NCBI GenBank assembly: GCA_945936135.1
Contig: CAMESG010000005.1
Span: 1 to 64,000, forward strand
Source: an uncultured Mollicutes bacterium
GTDB taxonomy: Bacteria; Bacillota_I; Bacilli_A; RFN20; CAG-826
Length of the DNA stretch: 64,000 nucleotides
Reading direction: 5' to 3'
Positions within the stretch are counted from its first letter, which is position 1; every line of letters starts with the position of its first letter. Below, piece by piece: positions 5,790 through 64,000 of the stretch. Both the position numbers and the translations under genes were made by a program. The notes under the pieces were generated by a model that did no database searches, had not been told where the DNA came from, and worked only from the letters and a program-made list of their open reading frames with translations.

Positions 5790-7199
5790 TTATATTCGTT
5801 CCGAAGGCCACGTTCGATTCTCTTTAAACCAATCCGTTTCCTTTAGAATCGTGTCGTTGCTCGAACCATGAACTTCAAGATCCATGCCAAGCGAAGTGCA
5901 AACGATGTTGCCGTTTAAAGAATCCGCGCGATCTTCGTGCCAAAGCGAGGTTACGTAAATCTTTTCGGTGTATTTCCCCATGACATTCACCGTGGCTTGA
6001 GCAGGGAACTCGTTTCCAGCGGTCGGACGGAATTCCTTGGTGCCAGCACAGCAACAAATACAGATGACTTCGGGGCGAATCACCGAAAGCAATGCATCAG
6101 AATTCGCGGTGTAAGAGCCGTGGTGAGCGCCTTTAAACAACGTGACTTGAGGCAATGTGTTAGACGCCACCAAAGAAGCCTCGCCTCCCGCTTCAAGATC
6201 GCCCGTGAAGAGGTAATGGTTCTCTCCTTGGGTAAAAAGCAAGCACACCGAATAGTTATTTTCATCGCCTTTCGCGCTTTCGACGTAATACTTGTGATAA
6301 AGGATCTCCATGGTGATCCCAGAGGCGATTTCGTACGACTTCTGGGCGCCTTCTTTCGACTCGTTCCAGCACTCTAACGCAGTGAAATGTTTCGCTCCGC
6401 TTGCAACTTCGGCGGTTCTTTCTTCTACATAACGATTGTAAATGGAAGAGGTGGTGTCGGTCTTTGGGAAGTCGATGATCGTGCCGACGTCGAATTGTTT
6501 GAAGATGCCGGGGGCGGCGTTCGTGCCAACAAAGCCCGCGATATGATCCTGGTGAGCGTGCGTTGCGACAACGTACTCAAGTTTATTGTCTTCAACCAGA
6601 CCGGGTTGTTTTAAGTATTTTCCAATCGTCCCAGCGGAATATTGGCGGCTTCCGGCGTCAATCAAAATGTCGGTTTCGCCGGCCTTAATGTAGACGGAGT
6701 CGCCGGTATATTGGTTCCCAAGCTCAAGGAAGTGGATTGAAATAGAATCGGCGGTGATCGAAGTTACAACAACAGATCTTTCCAAGGATTTCACCAATTT
6801 TTCGTGTTCGATGGAATAGGTTACTTTAAAGGTTGCTTCCTTTGAGGTATCCACGGTTGGAACCGTTACGCCATCGCACGTGTAAACCGTTTTGATCTCA
6901 TTGGAAATGTCTTTGCCTTCGTAAGTTGCTTTGGCGCCCTTTTCAACGTAGGCCGATTCCAAGGCCACGGAATAAGAAGAAGGGCCATTAAGCACAAAGG
7001 ACATCTCGGGTTCCGGCGGGAAGAAATATTGCCGCGCAAAATATCCCGCGACCCCAAGAGCGATGATCGCGATCACCGCCAGCACAAACGCAACAGGATG
7101 TTTTTTCCTAACTTTCTTGATCTCTTTTTTCGCCGTCTTCTTTATCTTCTTTCCGGTAGAAGACGCCTTTTTCTTTTGAGCTGGTTTTTGCTCTGACAT
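5790..7199 (-). CDS. Membrane-anchored ComEC-like metallo-beta-lactamase-fold protein
   Basis: 469 residues starting MSEQKPAQKKK (GAGG upstream at a good distance; five extra residues are possible from 7214). Layout: a Lys-rich cytoplasmic tail (1-38), one membrane segment (about 39-60, FVLAVIAIIALGVAGYFA), an Ig-like DUF5011-type domain (about 70-150), then a metallo-beta-lactamase fold with THAHQDHIAGF (HxHxDH), LIDAGS, LFTGDLE and KGAHHGS. The last part resembles the extracellular domain of ComEC/Rec2, so it may be a surface phosphodiesterase or nuclease. It has none of the ComEC channel segments, so DNA uptake cannot be claimed. It lies downstream of a small membrane protein gene on the same strand. 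Confidence 0.8.
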   Translation of the reverse strand: MSEQKPAQKKKASSTGKKIKKTAKKEIKKVRKKHPVAFVLAVIAIIALGVAGYFARQYFFPPEPEMSFVLNGPSSYSVALESAYVEKGAKATYEGKDISNEIKTVYTCDGVTVPTVDTSKEATFKVTYSIEHEKLVKSLERSVVVTSITADSISIHFLELGNQYTGDSVYIKAGETDILIDAGSRQYSAGTIGKYLKQPGLVEDNKLEYVVATHAHQDHIAGFVGTNAAPGIFKQFDVGTIIDFPKTDTTSSIYNRYVEERTAEVASGAKHFTALECWNESKEGAQKSYEIASGITMEILYHKYYVESAKGDENNYSVCLLFTQGENHYLFTGDLEAGGEASLVASNTLPQVTLFKGAHHGSYTANSDALLSVIRPEVICICCCAGTKEFRPTAGNEFPAQATVNVMGKYTEKIYVTSLWHEDRADSLNGNIVCTSLGMDLEVHGSSNDTILKETDWFKENRTWPSERI

Positions 7200-7308
7200 A
7201 ACGTCTCGCCTCAACTTGTTTCCGAAACCATAATAAAGGATGAAAACGCCTTTCTCAACGGAAAGAAGAGAGGATTGAAGAAATATTCAAAAACAGAACG
7301 TTCGTTGG

Positions 7309-7821
7309 CTATTTGCGCCGTCTTTTACGCCAATAGCGCTTGGAACGAACAATTAAAATCACCAAGAAGAGAATGGACAGAACGAAACAGAAAACCGCGA
7401 GAAATAATCCGTAGTCATAGCTAACATCCGCGGCGTTCATCGAAGGGTTTCCTAAAGCCAAGAATTGAGGCGAAAAAAAGAGGGCGATCGTTCCCGCGAG
7501 CAATAGGAAAAGCCCAACCGTGAGGTTAGCTGGGGTGTTCCTGCCAAAGAGAACGGCCAAGAAAGCCAAAACGAAAACCGAAAGAAGAACTAAAAACCAA
7601 ACATTGAAGGAGAAGGGGAAGGTGACACGAACCCCGTTAACCACTTCCATTTGGAGACCGCCGAAATAGACGTAGAAAGAGTGAAGCGACACATAGGTGC
7701 CGTCGCTGGCTCTCGTCCCTAAAATCGGCAGAAAGAGAAAGCCAATGCCAACAAGCATCAAAATCGCGACCAAATAGCTTGGCCAGCCTATCGTTTTTTG
7801 CTTTCTTTTATCCTCGTCCAC
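7309..7821 (-). CDS. Small multi-pass membrane protein, unknown function
   Basis: 170 residues with four hydrophobic stretches (about 15-33, 62-82, 90-110 and 135-155) and a strongly basic C-terminus (RSKRYWRKRRRK). I do not recognise the family. Translation probably starts at GTG (7821). A TAGATAAT box ends 7 bases before the GTG and no Shine-Dalgarno sequence is present, so the mRNA may be leaderless. It may be co-transcribed with the metallo-beta-lactamase-fold gene 110 bases downstream. Confidence 0.6.
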   Translation of the reverse strand: MDEDKRKQKTIGWPSYLVAILMLVGIGFLFLPILGTRASDGTYVSLHSFYVYFGGLQMEVVNGVRVTFPFSFNVWFLVLLSVFVLAFLAVLFGRNTPANLTVGLFLLLAGTIALFFSPQFLALGNPSMNAADVSYDYGLFLAVFCFVLSILFLVILIVRSKRYWRKRRRK

Positions 7822-7957
7822 GTCGGTAATTATCTATGGTTTGGCCATTTGAGTAAACAAAAAACGAAAACACGGTCCTTCCGGCGAACCATATTATGGT
7901 TTTCAAATACCTTCAACTCGTGTATTGTTTACTTTGCTTAAGCAAAAGAGTACCGAA

Positions 7958-57120: not shown

Positions 57121-57149
57121 TTGCTTCCTATAGGTAAAGAAATTATATT
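57121..57149 (+). promoter_or_regulatory. Promoter of the rnf operon
   Basis: TTGCTT and TATATT separated by exactly 17 bases, 25 bases before the rnfC start codon. Confidence 0.68.
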
Positions 57150-57174
57150 TCTTTTGTTAGAAAGAGGTTATCAC

Positions 57175-58476
57175 ATGATTGCAAAAATCAAAACCATTGA
57201 CAAAGTGCCTCATCTTCTATCGAGCCGCGAGACGGTGACTCTCGACGCGCCAGCGTTTGTTTACCTGACGCTTGAGTTGCCTCGCGCTCCGAAAGTGGAG
57301 CTTTTTGTCAAGGAGGGCGACCACGTTTACTTCTGCCAAAAAATTGGCGTAAGACATGGCTCGTCCTTCGATCTACCGATTTTCTCGACGGTCAGCGGAC
57401 AGGTGCTCGGCATCGAAAAGCACACGTCCAGCTCGGGAAAACCCGCGAACTTCCTGAAAGTTCAAAACGACTTCAAGGACGAATTGGATCCTGAAGCCAA
57501 GCCGCGCACCGCAGAAGAGATCGCGGCCCTGACCAAAGAAGACGTGTTCAACATCGTCAACGACTTCGGCCTCACCGGCCTTGGAGGCTCTGGCTTCCCG
57601 ACCATCATCAAGTTGAAGTCGAGCGAGAAGGTCGATCACATCCTCCTCAACGGCGTCGAATGCGAGCCGTACTTGAACAGCGACCAAACGTTGATGCTCA
57701 ACCACGCCAAAGAAATCATCGAAGGCGCCTTGATCTTACAGAAGATCTATGACTGCAAGGACGTGCGCATCTGCGTCAAGGGCATCCACCAAGACATCGT
57801 GGATCATTTGAACGAAGTGCTTGCTGCGGACTACAAGGATTCCGGCGTCACGGTTGCCTTGATGAAGAACTTCTATCCGCAGGGATGGGAAGTCGCTGAA
57901 ATCAAAACCGCGCTGAATATCGAGGTTGCTTCGGGCAAATTGCCGTTTGCTTACGGCGTCTTAAACCTCAACGTCGCGACGGCGATGAGCCTCTACCGCG
58001 CCGTTGCCCTCCGCCTCCCGATGGTCGAACGCTATGCGACGATCAACGGCGATGGCGTCGCTGCGCCGAAGGACTTCTTGGTCCGCATCGGCACCTTGTT
58101 CACCGATGTGCTTCCCGTTGTGGGCGGCTACACCGCGGAAGAAGGACTCCGCATGTCGGTCGGCGGCCCGATGATGGGTTCCACCGTTCCGAATGACGAC
58201 GTGGTGTTCTCCGACCTTGTGACCAACGTCCTCGTGACGAAGGATCACACCGTTGCAGAATCCCCGTGCATTCGTTGCGGATCCTGCGTCCTCTCTTGCC
58301 CGACCCATCTTGAGCCCGTGCTCATTATGGAAGCCGTCAAGAGCAACGATCGCGACCGCGTGAAGGCGTTGAAACCGTTGAGCTGCGTTGAATGCGGCCT
58401 TTGCACCTACGTCTGCACCTCGGGCATTCGCGTTACCGATTACATCAGGAGGGCAAAGATCTTAGCGAAGCTTTGA
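57175..58476 (+). CDS. rnfC: Rnf electron-transport complex subunit C
   Basis: 433 residues from ATG 57175, with AGAAAGAGG upstream. The N-terminal barrel-sandwich region is followed by the NADH/FMN-binding domain (GLGGSGFPTIIKL, NGVECEPYL) and a C-terminal ferredoxin part with two [4Fe-4S] motifs, CIRCGSCVLSCP and CVECGLCTYVC. RnfC is the peripheral NAD-binding subunit. It is the first gene of rnfCDGEA-small-B. Length is near the usual Firmicutes size. Confidence 0.96.
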   Translation: MIAKIKTIDKVPHLLSSRETVTLDAPAFVYLTLELPRAPKVELFVKEGDHVYFCQKIGVRHGSSFDLPIFSTVSGQVLGIEKHTSSSGKPANFLKVQNDFKDELDPEAKPRTAEEIAALTKEDVFNIVNDFGLTGLGGSGFPTIIKLKSSEKVDHILLNGVECEPYLNSDQTLMLNHAKEIIEGALILQKIYDCKDVRICVKGIHQDIVDHLNEVLAADYKDSGVTVALMKNFYPQGWEVAEIKTALNIEVASGKLPFAYGVLNLNVATAMSLYRAVALRLPMVERYATINGDGVAAPKDFLVRIGTLFTDVLPVVGGYTAEEGLRMSVGGPMMGSTVPNDDVVFSDLVTNVLVTKDHTVAESPCIRCGSCVLSCPTHLEPVLIMEAVKSNDRDRVKALKPLSCVECGLCTYVCTSGIRVTDYIRRAKILAKL

Positions 58477-58487
58477 TCGCAATCTCT

Positions 58488-59561
58488 ATGAACTTTATTA
58501 AAGAATCTGCTCCCCACCTTCAGAAAGGGAAGAGCCTCGGCTGGATGCTTGGCAACGTCTTGATTGCGTTGGCCCCTGTGTTCATCTGGTCCTTCGTCGT
58601 CTATCCGATCCCCTCGCTTCAGATCTATCCGATCAGCATCGTAACCTGCTTGGCCTCGGAATTCGTCTTTATTCTCATCACCAAGAAAAAGGTATCCGAA
58701 TTCAAGATCGAAAATATCTTGAGCGCCATCATCACGGGCATCATCTATGCGATGTGCTTGCCAACCGACCTTAGCTTCAGCAACGGTCTAGGCTACTTCA
58801 TCGTCTTCATCGGTGCCTTGCTTGGCATGATCCTTGGCAAACTCGTCTTCGGAGGGTTTGGCAATAACATCTTCAATCCGGCGGCCCTTGGCATGGTCAT
58901 CGTCCGCGCTGGTTGGGGTTCCAAATTGGGCGTTGGCGAGTCCGCCTTCCCCGATTGGGTCGAAGCCGGCGGAACCCACTTCTTCGGCGGTTCCTTCAGC
59001 GAAATCGCGAACGTGAATCTTCTTGATTCCTTCCTCGGTCGCGCCCCTGGTGCGCTTGGCGAAACTTTCGCGATTGCCATCCTCATTGGCCTAGTCTACC
59101 TCTTGGTCACCAAGACCATCGATTGGCGCGTCGTTGTTTCCTTTTTCGGAACCTTCGTTGTCTTGATGCTCGCCGCGGGCATCGTCGTCCAAGTGAAATT
59201 GCCGGAATCTGGCGTTAACGCGGGCAAATTCCTCCTCTATCAATTGCTTTCTGGCGGCGTCCTCTTCGGCGGCGTCTACATGATGACCGACCCAGTTACG
59301 GGTCCTGCTGGTTCTCCTGCCCGCTATATCTATGGCGCCTTCGGGGCCATCATGGTCACCTTCATCCGTCTCTTCATGCACGTTGGCGGCGTTGGATACT
59401 CCATCCTCTTCGCGAACCTTCTTGCCTGCGTGCTTGATTACCCGCAATGGACTTCCTCCCGCTGGAAGAAGTGGCACATCATCACCTTGCCGGTCATGAT
59501 CGTGGTCGCCTTGGCCGCTGTCATCCTCGTCTTGGTCTTTAAGGAAGGAGCTGTCGCATGA
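58488..59561 (+). CDS. rnfD: Rnf complex subunit D
   Basis: 357 residues from ATG 58488 (MNFIKESAPHLQKGKSLGWML), 11 bases after rnfC; no clear ribosome site is seen, so translation may be coupled. About nine membrane segments are visible. KLVFGGFGNNIFNPAALGMVI and APGALGETFAIAILIGLVYLL match RnfD/NqrB. The SGAT-type loop that normally holds a covalent FMN before this segment cannot be found; the region reads GGTHFFGGSFSEIANVN. It overlaps rnfG by 4 bases. Confidence 0.93.
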   Translation: MNFIKESAPHLQKGKSLGWMLGNVLIALAPVFIWSFVVYPIPSLQIYPISIVTCLASEFVFILITKKKVSEFKIENILSAIITGIIYAMCLPTDLSFSNGLGYFIVFIGALLGMILGKLVFGGFGNNIFNPAALGMVIVRAGWGSKLGVGESAFPDWVEAGGTHFFGGSFSEIANVNLLDSFLGRAPGALGETFAIAILIGLVYLLVTKTIDWRVVVSFFGTFVVLMLAAGIVVQVKLPESGVNAGKFLLYQLLSGGVLFGGVYMMTDPVTGPAGSPARYIYGAFGAIMVTFIRLFMHVGGVGYSILFANLLACVLDYPQWTSSRWKKWHIITLPVMIVVALAAVILVLVFKEGAVA

Positions 59562-61105
59562 GCAACGAACAAAGCAAAAAAGCCATGAATCCTTATATCA
59601 AGGCACCGCTCGTTCTCGGTGGCATCTGCGTCGTGTCTGCCCTCTTGCTTGGCGGACTCAACATGGCGGCGCAAGCCTACAAAAAAAGTCAACCCGCTGC
59701 CGCGCCGAAGAGCATTCAAGCCCTCGACCCGAAAGCGAGTTTCGTCGCCGTCGAAGGCTTCGAGCCTTACACGGATCGCGGATCGAACACGAAAGTCACG
59801 ATCGAAGAAGCTTATCAAATCCAAGAAGGCGGCAAGCTTACGGGCTACGCCTACTCCGTGAATTGCGGGAAAGCCGTCAAGTCCGACATCACCTTCACGG
59901 TCGCTTTCAAAGGCGATATCAGCGAATCGACCGTCCAAGACGTCCAGCCGTTCAGCGCCGTTGCAACCGGCATGGGCGATCCCGGCTATGCCGATAACGC
60001 TAAGGCGTTGTTGGACAAAATCGCCGCCGGAAACGTGTCGATGAACGACGATTCCGCGGTTGTTACCGGCGGCACGAAGTCCCAAAAATTCGTTTTGGAT
60101 GGGCTCCAGGTCGCACGCAATCTCTATCTAGCCCATTGGACGGGTGGATCGATCGACGAGAAAGACGAAACCCTCTCGGCGATCCAAAGCTTCTTCGAGG
60201 ACGCTGTTTCCTATGAAGAGGAAGAAGCCTTCAAACCGCTTGCCTTCACCTATAAGGATATCGCGGATGTGAGGCGGACCGGGCACGTCACCAAGCGTTA
60301 CGCCGTCACGTTGGAAGATGGTTCCATCGCGAGAGCCTACGTTGGCGACGGCAAGACGAAAGTCTCGCCCTATGAACCGGAGCTCTCCGTCGAACTCATG
60401 GTCGGCTTCAGAGGCGATGTTGAAGAAGGCAAAGAGAAAGCCGTCCAGCCTAAGGGCTACGCCGTCCTTTCCTCCGACTTCTCCTATTCGCAATGGCAGG
60501 AGAACTACCTCCCTGGCGTTGTCGATGGCTCGAACGACATCGACGATAGCAAGGCCGTGAACTGCGGCGCTACCGTTTCCGCCAAAGTGGTCCGTGCGAT
60601 GATGGTCGCGATGCGCGATGATTACGCAAAGACCGTTATCGCCGAAAAAGCCGCAAATGTCGTGCTTGATTTCCAAAACATCTACGGCCAAGCCTTTGAT
60701 TCCTACGTCAAAGACGAGGATTTTGAAGCAAAGAGCGGCAGTCTTGAAACCGTTACTGGCACGTATAGCATCGACGAGCGTTACACCATCGCCTTGACCG
60801 GCGGCGAAACCGTGAAGGCCTATAGAGGATCTGCGGCTTCGCAATTCGATGTCGGCGGCGAAGGCGAAAGCATGTCCACGACGATCATCGCGGGCTTCGA
60901 TGCTTCGAACGCTGTGAAAGGTATCGCCGTCAAGAAAGTCAGCGGTTTCGACAACTGGGTCGATGGTTACGTCCCCGGCATCGTGGATGGATCGAAAGAT
61001 CTCGATTCCCTCAATGACGTCACGGGCGGATCCACCTATTCCGCGAAAGCCGTTCGCGAGCTCTTGATTGCTATGCGCGCGGATTCCGCCACGCCGAAGG
61101 AGTAA
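59558..61105 (+). CDS. rnfG: Rnf complex subunit G with three FMN-binding domains
   Basis: 515 residues, whereas RnfG is usually about 200. One membrane segment (about 15-36) is followed by three tandem FMN-binding domains (about 60-195, 225-355, 375-510). Each ends with a flavin-attachment-like motif: TGGTKS (Thr173), CGATVS (Thr339) and GGSTYS (Thr493), followed in domains 2 and 3 by AKVVRAMMVAM and AKAVRELLIAM. The conserved lead-ins LPGVVDGSNDID and VPGIVDGSKDLD confirm that domains 2 and 3 are copies; domain 1 is more diverged. ApbE, encoded downstream, would attach FMN to the Thr residues. The protein could carry up to three flavins on the outer face. Confidence 0.93.
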   Translation: MSNEQSKKAMNPYIKAPLVLGGICVVSALLLGGLNMAAQAYKKSQPAAAPKSIQALDPKASFVAVEGFEPYTDRGSNTKVTIEEAYQIQEGGKLTGYAYSVNCGKAVKSDITFTVAFKGDISESTVQDVQPFSAVATGMGDPGYADNAKALLDKIAAGNVSMNDDSAVVTGGTKSQKFVLDGLQVARNLYLAHWTGGSIDEKDETLSAIQSFFEDAVSYEEEEAFKPLAFTYKDIADVRRTGHVTKRYAVTLEDGSIARAYVGDGKTKVSPYEPELSVELMVGFRGDVEEGKEKAVQPKGYAVLSSDFSYSQWQENYLPGVVDGSNDIDDSKAVNCGATVSAKVVRAMMVAMRDDYAKTVIAEKAANVVLDFQNIYGQAFDSYVKDEDFEAKSGSLETVTGTYSIDERYTIALTGGETVKAYRGSAASQFDVGGEGESMSTTIIAGFDASNAVKGIAVKKVSGFDNWVDGYVPGIVDGSKDLDSLNDVTGGSTYSAKAVRELLIAMRADSATPKE

Positions 61106-61110
61106 AGACA

Positions 61111-61842
61111 ATGGCTAACGAACAGAAAACAAAATCCAATCGCCTGGCGATCTTCACCGATCCGCTTCTTAAGGCGAACCCCCTCTTCATGATGGTTCTC
61201 GGCATGTGCCCTGCGCTTGCTGTTACCACCTCCGTTGAGAACGCCATCGGCATGGCGCTCCTCTTCATCTTCGTCTTGTTCTTCTCGACGCTGATCATCT
61301 CCGCCCTTCGCAAGGTCATTCCTGACGAAGTGCGCACCCCGGCTTACATCGTCATCATCGCGACCTTCGTCACGGTGGTGAAGATCTTGACCGAAACCTT
61401 CTTGCCGGAACTCTATTCCTCTTTGGGCGTCTTCATCTCGTTGATCGTCGTTAACTGCATTGTCCTCGGGCGTGCGGAAGCCTTCTCCTCGAAGAACGGT
61501 GTCGTCGACACGATGCTTGACTCCCTCGGCAACGGTTTGGGCTATGGCTGGGCCATCATCGCGGTCGGCTTGATCCGTGAAGTCTTCGGCAAAGGAACGC
61601 TCTCCTTTGGTCAAGTCTTTACTTTCGTTCCCTCGACCACGATTCCCGTCTTGGGCGGGTTCGAAGGCACGGACTTCTCGCTTGCCATTCCTCTTCTTGC
61701 CTCTCCGGCTGGCGGCTTCCTCGTCATTGCTGTGATCTTGGCGATCATCGCTGCGGTCAACAACGCGAAGCTTGCCAAGGAGCGTGCGAAGGCCCGCGCG
61801 GCACGAGCCGCGTCCGCCACCGCCCCGAAAGGAGATAAATAA
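61111..61842 (+). CDS. rnfE: Rnf complex subunit E
   Basis: 243 residues with six membrane segments. NPLFMMVLGMCPALAVTTSVENAIGM is the paired-Cys half-repeat typical of RnfE/NqrD, and VVNCIVLGRAEAFSSKNGV is the second signature. The basic, Ala-rich tail is slightly longer than usual. It shares a [2Fe-2S] site with RnfA inside the membrane in known structures. 5 bases after rnfG, 2 before rnfA. Confidence 0.95.
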   Translation: MANEQKTKSNRLAIFTDPLLKANPLFMMVLGMCPALAVTTSVENAIGMALLFIFVLFFSTLIISALRKVIPDEVRTPAYIVIIATFVTVVKILTETFLPELYSSLGVFISLIVVNCIVLGRAEAFSSKNGVVDTMLDSLGNGLGYGWAIIAVGLIREVFGKGTLSFGQVFTFVPSTTIPVLGGFEGTDFSLAIPLLASPAGGFLVIAVILAIIAAVNNAKLAKERAKARAARAASATAPKGDK

Positions 61843-61844
61843 AC

Positions 61845-62447
61845 ATGCCGTACATTGTTGCTTTCTTCTTGGCGATCATTAACTTCGCCGTCATCAACAA
61901 CGTCATCCTTGCGCGTTATTTCGGCATTTGCTCCTTCGTTGGCGTGTCCAACAAGGTCAAATCCGCGGCGGGCATGGGCGTTGCCGTCGCCTTCGTCACC
62001 ATCATGGCGGCCTTGGTTTGCTGGCCGATCTACCAATTCATCCTCGTCCCGGCGGGCATGCAATACATGGAGACCATCGTCTTCATCCTCGTCATCGCCT
62101 CCTTGGTCCAGATGGTTGGCTTCGTCATCAAAAAGAAATCGCCGTCGCTTTACAAAGCGCTTGGCATCTATTTGCCGCTTATCACCACGAACTGCGCCGT
62201 TTTGGGCGTGTGCTCTGGCAACGTCGGTTATGACTTCGGCTACGCGATGGCCAATGCTATTGGCACCTCGCTTGGCTTCTTGCTCATCATCGTCCTCTTC
62301 GCTTGCGTCCGCGTCCGTCTCGAAGGCAGCTCCATCCCCAAGCCGTTCAAGGGCGTTCCTATCGCTCTTATCGTCGCGGGGCTTATGGCGCTCATCTTCG
62401 GTTCGCTCGGTGGTATGATCGACCTCGGATCCTGGGGGTTGATGTAA
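61845..62447 (+). CDS. rnfA: Rnf complex subunit A
   Basis: 200 residues with six membrane segments, inverted in topology relative to RnfE. NFAVINNVILARYFGICSFVGVSNK and LPLITTNCAVLGVC carry the two conserved cysteines. With RnfE it forms the membrane core holding an iron-sulfur centre. The length is standard. Confidence 0.95.
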   Translation: MPYIVAFFLAIINFAVINNVILARYFGICSFVGVSNKVKSAAGMGVAVAFVTIMAALVCWPIYQFILVPAGMQYMETIVFILVIASLVQMVGFVIKKKSPSLYKALGIYLPLITTNCAVLGVCSGNVGYDFGYAMANAIGTSLGFLLIIVLFACVRVRLEGSSIPKPFKGVPIALIVAGLMALIFGSLGGMIDLGSWGLM

Positions 62448-62451
62448 TTCC

Positions 62452-62712
62452 ATGCCGGAGTGGGCTTATGTCTTGATCGCGGTCCTCTTGATCGCGGGCC
62501 TGCTCATCCTCTTCTTCGTTTCCTTCGTGCTCTACGTGAAAACGCCAGCACCCGCAGGATGCGAGAAGACCTATGGCCCGAATTGCGATCAATGCGATCA
62601 AGCAAGCTGCCAGTTCTATCATTTCAAAGAACAGGCCTTGGAAAAAACAAAAGAAGAAGAGAAACCTTTGGAAGAACAATCTGAAGGTTCCTCTTCCGAA
62701 AGAAAGGAATAA
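62452..62712 (+). CDS. Small membrane protein with RnfB-like Cys spacing, in rnf operon
   Basis: 86 residues, not a known Rnf subunit. One membrane helix (about 5-29) is followed by a Cys-rich patch GCEKTYGPNCDQCDQASCQF (C37, C45, C48, C53) and a charged Glu/Lys/Ser tail. C45-x2-C48-x4-C53 has the same spacing as the first three Cys of the iron-sulfur motif in RnfB encoded 3 bases downstream. The gene is packed between rnfA and rnfB, so a role in the complex is likely. Iron-sulfur binding is inferred. Confidence 0.85.
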   Translation: MPEWAYVLIAVLLIAGLLILFFVSFVLYVKTPAPAGCEKTYGPNCDQCDQASCQFYHFKEQALEKTKEEEKPLEEQSEGSSSERKE

Positions 62713-62714
62713 AT

Positions 62715-63092
62715 ATGTTGTTATTCTTAGCGGAAGCCGCCGAAGAAACGCCATCCTCCTTCGATCCGACGAGCCTCAACATGGTTTGGGCGATCCTCTT
62801 GCTCTTGGTGCTTGGCGTTGCCTTTGCTGCCTTGTTGGTTCTTTTCTCCAAGATCTTCCACGTCGAAGAAGATCCGCGCGTTGAAAAGGTCACGGAATTG
62901 CTCCCTGGCTATAACTGCGGCGCCTGCGGCAAAGCGGGCTGCCATGATTTGGCCGAAGCCTTGGTCTCCGGCGAAGTCAAGAACGTCACCGCCTGCAAGA
63001 CCGGGAAGAAGGACAAGAACTACGATCCGATCATCGAGTACCTGAAATCCACCCCGGGTCCCGATGGAACGACCGTCGACGTAAAACTCTAA
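62715..63092 (+). CDS. rnfB: Rnf complex subunit B, short form without ferredoxin domains
   Basis: 125 residues. After a short N-terminus comes one membrane helix (about 24-45) and the Fes domain LLPGYNCGACGKAGCHDLAEA with C68, C71, C76 and C94. Standard RnfB continues with at least two [4Fe-4S] ferredoxin motifs that accept electrons from ferredoxin; here the protein stops soon after the first cluster, and a strong terminator follows, so nothing further is encoded. AAAGGA precedes the ATG. Confidence 0.93.
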   Translation: MLLFLAEAAEETPSSFDPTSLNMVWAILLLLVLGVAFAALLVLFSKIFHVEEDPRVEKVTELLPGYNCGACGKAGCHDLAEALVSGEVKNVTACKTGKKDKNYDPIIEYLKSTPGPDGTTVDVKL

Positions 63093-63163: not shown

Positions 63164-64000
63164 ATGAAAAAACACGCTATTTTCTTATTTGCGCCCTTCT
63201 TAGGGCTTCTCGCTTCTTGCGCGCAAGGAACGATCTACAAGGGCTATGCGACGCACACCTTGTTCCATTCTTTTTTTAGCTGGTGGTTTGAATCGACCCG
63301 CGGGGATTATGGATCGGATATCGTTGATCTTGCGACGAAGATCAACGATCTCACGGATCCTTACACGGAGCCTAAGGACGGCATGACGACCCTCTATACG
63401 GTCAACACTTCTTCGGATTGGGTCGAAGTTGACCCAACCCTTTATGAGGTTCTGGAGCTTGCCGTCGAGCTTCAAGAAAAGACGGAAGGATACTTCAATC
63501 CGTTTATCGGAGAGCTCACCATGCATTGGAAGGAAACGCTTTTTGGGTTGGGCGAGTTCGATATCAAAGATCCGACCTACGAGGAGATTGAGGAAGCAAA
63601 GGAAGAAGTTCCGGCGATGCTTCAAAGGATGAATGCATCCTCGTTGGAATTTAACGCAGAACGCCATGCGGTGAAGCGCAACGGCGAAGGCGCGCTTGAC
63701 CTAGGGGGCCTTGTTAAAGGCTTTGCGGTCAACAAAACGAAAGAACTGATCAAGTCTCGTGGCGGCGACCGTTATTTGATCAACGGCGGCCAAAGCTCGT
63801 TGGCTTTAGGAAAACCTCAAAGCAATGAAAATTTCACCGTGTCGTTGCTTTATACGCTTGTCGAGAAGGAAATATCTTATGCATTAAAAGAAGTTGACTG
63901 CTCAACTTCTGCAATCTACGAACAAAAGGTCGATGTCGTGGCGCCCGATACGGCGAAACGGGTTACCTATTCCCACATCTTGAACCCGAAGACGGGAATG
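63164..64000 (+). CDS. apbE: FAD:protein FMN transferase ApbE, lipoprotein (cut by window end)
   Basis: The first 279 residues are present; the gene runs off the right edge. A lipoprotein signal (MKKHAIFLFAPFLGLLASC, Cys at 19) anchors it outside. GYFNPFIGEL, LDLGGLVKGFAVNK, LINGGQSSLALG and SHILNPKTG match ApbE/Ftp, the enzyme that moves FMN from FAD to Thr residues of RnfG, RnfD and related proteins. Its place after an RnfG with three candidate sites supports that job. It has its own possible leaderless promoter and follows the rnf terminator. Confidence 0.93.
   Translation, partial: MKKHAIFLFAPFLGLLASCAQGTIYKGYATHTLFHSFFSWWFESTRGDYGSDIVDLATKINDLTDPYTEPKDGMTTLYTVNTSSDWVEVDPTLYEVLELAVELQEKTEGYFNPFIGELTMHWKETLFGLGEFDIKDPTYEEIEEAKEEVPAMLQRMNASSLEFNAERHAVKRNGEGALDLGGLVKGFAVNKTKELIKSRGGDRYLINGGQSSLALGKPQSNENFTVSLLYTLVEKEISYALKEVDCSTSAIYEQKVDVVAPDTAKRVTYSHILNPKTGM

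Follow-up and report, generated by a model that had tools for sequence, protein, structure and literature searches.

The window, i.e. the whole stretch of 64,000 nucleotides that was analyzed, closes with an operon for an Rnf (ferredoxin:NAD) complex, a membrane ion pump, from a bacterium with a small genome. Open reading frames and family searches gave the order rnfC-rnfD-rnfG-rnfE-rnfA-X-rnfB-apbE, such that RnfA, B, C, D, E and G are all encoded (Table 1). The gene under study, whose coordinates and sequence had been given exactly in the earlier note, lies between rnfD and rnfE, as expected of rnfG, and its identification as RnfG is supported alike by gene order, homology and fold.

Table 1. 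Features of the Rnf operon and of the domains encoded by rnfG
Feature	Position	Strand	Description
rnfC	57121..58476	+	start codon uncertain; NCBIfam TIGR01945 E 5.6e-95
rnfD	58392..59561	+	start codon uncertain; Pfam NQR2_RnfD_RnfE E 2.6e-63; flavinylation-like Thr, codon at 58974 (AGGT)
rnfG	59558..61105	+	515 aa; membrane helix (model residues 16-40), then three tandem RnfG/FMN_bind domains
domain 1 (D1)	59738..60142	+	residues 61-195; candidate FMN site Thr173, TGGTKS (codon 60074-60076); profile 23.6 bits
domain 2 (D2)	60173..60640	+	residues 206-361; candidate FMN site Thr339, CGATVS (codon 60572-60574); profile 42.7 bits
domain 3 (D3)	60653..61090	+	residues 366-511; candidate FMN site Thr493, GGSTYS (codon 61034-61036); profile 18.3 bits
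rnfE	61111..61842	+	NCBIfam RsxE/rnfE
rnfA	61845..62447	+	NCBIfam TIGR01943 E 9.1e-64
X	62452..62712	+	86 aa; hydrophobic N-terminus, C-x7-C-x2-C-x4-C; between rnfA and rnfB
rnfB, short	62715..63092	+	Pfam FeS E 3.9e-11, without Fer4 match
apbE, lipoprotein FMN transferase	63164..64000	+	Pfam ApbE E 2.3e-30; runs past the window end

In the contig, the complete apbE gene encodes 352 amino acids and is followed by two further genes, both also present in relatives, which by eye appear to be NusG-domain-II-like and Gx-transporter-like. As noted earlier, this downstream ApbE is a lipoprotein (lipobox LASC, Cys19), and it was the sole ApbE found in a search of the genome. The G[AG]T flavin site of RnfD is present in the window as GGT and was retained in nearly all of the aligned relatives (Ser in G007), which rules out an RnfD without its flavin threonine. 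One match to PFOR and two to FeFe-hydrogenases in the genome would fit a ferredoxin-based metabolism.

The RnfB of the window consists of a membrane helix and the first Fe-S domain (FdI/B8) only. Within the order, RnfB proteins were 94-164 residues long as called, mostly 104-125; the four-cysteine FeS pattern was observed in 119 of 120, and the CxxCxxCxxxC ferredoxin pattern in none of the 120. The short form is not a peculiarity of the genus, since it also occurs in a sample of the class, in which 203 of 395 genomes gave RnfB matches and nearly all of the listed open frames were about 100-130 residues long. A homologue of X was recognized in 115 of the fetched operons and in most of 20 further operons from the class. 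Across these operons X is a small cysteine-rich membrane protein with the pattern C-x(5-8)-C-x2-C-x4-C, likely carrying one membrane helix as judged from its sequence.

Three tandem domains in one RnfG

The earlier note proposed a single membrane anchor followed by three FMN_bind-type domains, and this arrangement was confirmed. A domain profile built from 91 single-domain RnfG proteins of the same order matched the window RnfG at residues 77-195, 234-358 and 419-509, with scores (Table 1) well separated from the best value of 8.9 bits among 2000 shuffled copies. In pairwise comparisons, D2 and D3 are clear duplicates, as had been claimed (30% identity, BLASTP E 4e-19); D1 resembles D2 (E 4e-7), and the similarity of D1 to D3 reached no significance. 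D1 is the divergent member, and its TGGT deviates from [S/T]GA[S/T].

The standard family models proved unsuitable for this lineage. The FMN_bind search suggested earlier (Pfam PF04205) left the window RnfG unmatched even at E 10, yet it also failed on two ordinary single-domain RnfG proteins from the same genus; to rely on it would thus have meant rejecting the finding wrongly. Similarly, NCBIfam TIGR01947 (RnfG) gave E 4.7e-4 and 20.3 bits against a cut-off of 102. Four single-domain RnfG proteins from sister operons scored just 22.9-34.7 bits and likewise fell short, so the cut-off is unsuited to the lineage. Both models were accordingly dropped as deciding tests.

In an AlphaFold model of the whole protein (mean pLDDT 75, pTM 0.58) the same layout is seen three times; at these values the individual domains are believable, whereas their mutual arrangement is not. 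A single long helix, modeled with moderate confidence, connects D2 to D3. Since the structure search with the whole model left D2 uncovered, D2 was also folded by itself (pLDDT 89, pTM 0.86). In comparisons with VIA-align 2, D1 (model residues 96-189) matched domain 1 of CbFMN4 (8p2b_A; Z 8.1, rmsd 2.1 over 81 residues), D2 matched the RnfG of Thermotoga maritima (3dcz; Z 8.9, next row 5.8), and D3 matched the RnfG proteins of Clostridium tetanomorphum (7zc6_G; Z 12.1) and Acetobacterium woodii (9eri_G; Z 11.8). Each of the three domains thus matches an RnfG or multi-FMN domain in the structure prediction that had been called for, and the RnfG/NqrC fold itself is recovered through D3 and D2. 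Z values of about 8-9 are just moderately above the stated background of the tool, and the fold matches of D1 and D2 are therefore counted jointly with the sequence evidence. The input alignments of the models (12-14 rows) contained RnfG proteins of archaea and of Mycoplasmatota zrk7, such that the RnfG relationship is partly built into the models. Foldseek alone was weak: the whole model matched the A. woodii RnfG with E 0.016, and RnfG was absent among the best 50 rows listed for the D2 model. Taken together, the three-domain RnfG is real and is conserved among close relatives.

Candidate flavin sites

Each domain was earlier said to carry a threonine in a motif resembling a flavin-attachment site, and all three residues are correctly placed in the fold: Thr173, Thr339 and Thr493 begin the last helices of their respective domains (174-195, 339-376 and 492-510 in the AlphaFold model). 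In C. tetanomorphum RnfG the FMN is carried by Thr164 at the start of the last helix (PMC9588780), and the FMN-threonine of the second domain of SaFMN3 is described at the same position (PMC10339131). Three matches to [STCGN]G[AGS]TxS are present in the window RnfG versus 0.02 expected, and none of 5000 shuffles contained three, a count that is descriptive only, the pattern having been drawn up after the sites were seen.

None of the three threonines is substituted in any of the seven three-domain proteins from the window's clade, which share 28-70% pairwise identity. Of the 470 columns in their alignment only 47 are invariant, and of the 30 threonines only 5; the probability that these three threonines all fall among those five is 0.0025. 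The flanking residues vary within the clade (CGATVS, CKATIS, TGATFA, AGGTMT), which identifies the threonine itself as the conserved element. From sequence and models, covalent FMN is therefore likely at Thr173, Thr339 and Thr493.

The same evidence bears on the view that not all of the domains hold FMN and that one or both of the extra ones are structural spacers. In the order's other three-domain RnfG proteins (G006, G019, G246, G247 and G248) the middle domain has no recognizable threonine at the site, and forms above 1000 residues are mixed in this respect. Within the window's clade, the invariance of Thr339 and Thr493 and their correct placement speak against spacers, which we regard as improbable here. 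A motif-pattern reading in which most extra domains outside the clade lacked the threonine was overturned by profile alignment: at the aligned site the extra domains mostly have Thr or Ser, and losses are found mainly in the middle domain of three-domain RnfG proteins from outside the clade and in some domains of the longest forms.

Domain gain among related Rnf operons

In the genus, 24 of 31 genomes gave RnfE matches, and in the order 144 of 279 did so. A survey of RnfG length, as had been recommended, revealed one-, two- and three-domain proteins as well as forms above 1000 residues in related genomes: among 124 proteins examined (one of them from Mycoplasmatota zrk7), domain classes assigned by length comprised 96 with one domain, 10 with two, 14 with three and 4 of more than 1000 residues. 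The longest proteins (L086, L087, L089 and L091; 1004-1154 residues) gave about six profile matches each, with Thr, Ser and other residues mixed at the site.

In a FastTree phylogeny of RnfE and RnfA, the long RnfG proteins are distributed in several separate groups, although some branches are weak; by this evidence, extra RnfG domains were gained several times within the order. The clade of the window is fully supported and also contains a two-domain and a one-domain member. In the latter (G022) only domain 1 is present, and domain 1 is thus apparently able to serve alone. In a tree of the individual domains, all of the D1 sequences form a single clade. The D2 and D3 sequences of four relatives cluster with one another, which suggests repeated duplication or gene conversion. 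Operons of another genus (G231, G240, G241 and G242; L074, L071, L073 and L072, respectively) are located inside the window's RnfE/RnfA clade, which could reflect operon transfer or a problem with the genus boundary.

Enlargement was observed in other components as well. RnfD proteins of about 480-996 residues in L144 (G068), L156 (G065), L183 and L194 carry C-terminal FMN_bind-like domains; one of them passes the Pfam FMN_bind cut-off (residues 414-532, 22.6 bits versus 22), and by the local profile others have one or two such domains. Some relatives possess a second RnfG-like gene, and in L009 rnfE is preceded by a pair of adjacent RnfG-like genes, each encoding two domains (5847-7903; Mycoplasmatota zrk7). 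That such domains were gained repeatedly within one class of bacteria suggests that they have a function, either in electron storage or as an outlet.

Electron path and comparison with known systems

We consider it probable that the protein is the RnfG of the Rnf complex, with its FMN-binding domain tandemly duplicated to three on one anchor, and that the operon's ApbE flavinylates all three threonines; D1 would retain the normal role and D2 and D3 would add two flavins. Most likely, ApbE would attach FMN to Thr173, Thr339 and Thr493, and D1, which adjoins the membrane helix, would perform the usual transfer of electrons between RnfA/E and RnfD. D2 and D3, farther along the chain, would exchange electrons with D1 and either hold them or pass them on. 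If the three sites do carry FMN, the clade supplies natural RnfG proteins whose complexes are otherwise similar but whose flavin domains number one, two or three, and the effect of added outer flavins on the ion pump becomes directly testable.

Two uses of the added flavins were weighed, both presupposing that three are present. The earlier note envisaged a flavin chain on the outer side of the membrane that passes electrons to an external acceptor; the three outer flavins of that proposal are likely, but the acceptor is not visible. Such an outlet, by which D2 and D3 would transfer Rnf electrons to an acceptor outside the membrane, is consistent with the conservation of two further outer sites and with the repeated gain of outer FMN_bind-like domains in the order, and has been proposed for multi-flavinylated RnfG (PMC8238504). 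Against it, no acceptor protein was recognized among the operon genes examined. Genome searches with FMN_bind and the domain profile gave no other FMN_bind-like protein, a soft negative of limited sensitivity, as the profile search missed D1 itself; a search with FAD_binding_2 gave short N-terminal matches only and no full-length fumarate-reductase-like match. Furthermore, all three flavins of SaFMN3 are reported to have the same potential, close to -184 mV, and the authors of that study observed no directional flow (PMC10339131). We thus treat the outlet as a tentative and rather doubtful reading.

The same lack of an acceptor in the operon genes examined and in the genome searches would suit extra domains that, without involving an outside acceptor, store electrons or help RnfG to make contact with RnfA/E or RnfD. 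The presence of the full set of Rnf subunits and the retained flavin site of RnfD agree with such a role, although electron storage by an RnfG has no precedent known to us. To this possibility we assign slightly less than an even chance.

On a broader scale, it is conceivable, although we hold it only tentatively, that the Rnf of this class is a distinct subtype, in which RnfB retains only the first, mobile Fe-S domain and has X as its neighbor, and in which the outer flavin arm was repeatedly enlarged by tandem RnfG domains, a second RnfG gene or FMN_bind-like domains on RnfD. Electrons from ferredoxin would then enter by a shorter inner route and be stored or released by a longer outer one. 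The RnfB proteins of A. woodii and C. tetanomorphum share the first, mobile domain but have additional clusters, close to the presumed docking site of ferredoxin (for C. tetanomorphum, PMC9588780); such clusters are not seen in the RnfB of the window or in the RnfB proteins sampled from the order and class. Paper searches of an open library returned nothing fitting on RnfD fusions or a short RnfB, which is weak evidence of absence.

Canonical RnfG proteins (C. tetanomorphum 7zc6, A. woodii 9eri, T. maritima 3dcz) have one domain, versus three here. The two-subunit NQR/RNF-like complexes, for which one-way outward flow was proposed (PMC11334425), similarly combine an outer flavin domain of the NqrC/RnfG type with a membrane subunit of the NqrB/RnfD type; in contrast, the window has a full Rnf gene set and the flavin threonine of RnfD, both of which those complexes lack. 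SaFMN3, with three FMN by mass spectrometry, and CbFMN4 each consist of three or four FMN_bind domains in a chain anchored to the membrane (PMC10339131), and D1 resembles the first domain of CbFMN4, as described above. Unlike the window RnfG, they are not described as Rnf subunits in the parts of that source consulted, which give 84-94% identity and flexible linkers for the SaFMN3 domains, in contrast to the more divergent D2 and D3 and their modeled long helix.

As in multi-flavinylated proteins, more than one FMN_bind-type domain is located within one extracytosolic protein, and the comparison with them drawn in the earlier note is apt: multi-flavinylated RnfG proteins in Rnf clusters, with a proposed second path to outside acceptors, were described by Meheust et al. 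(2021, eLife; PMC8238504), and the kind as such is already known. The main text of that paper contains nothing specific on the lineage of the window and names Christensenellales for a cytochrome form. In both cases an Rnf cluster encodes an RnfG with multiple FMN-binding domains; in the present operons, close relatives differ in how many domains they have, and one clade retains all three sites. The present operons add the repeated gain of domains in the order (RnfG of up to 1154 residues), the extra domains on RnfD or in a second RnfG gene, and an RnfB with the first Fe-S domain only, beside X.
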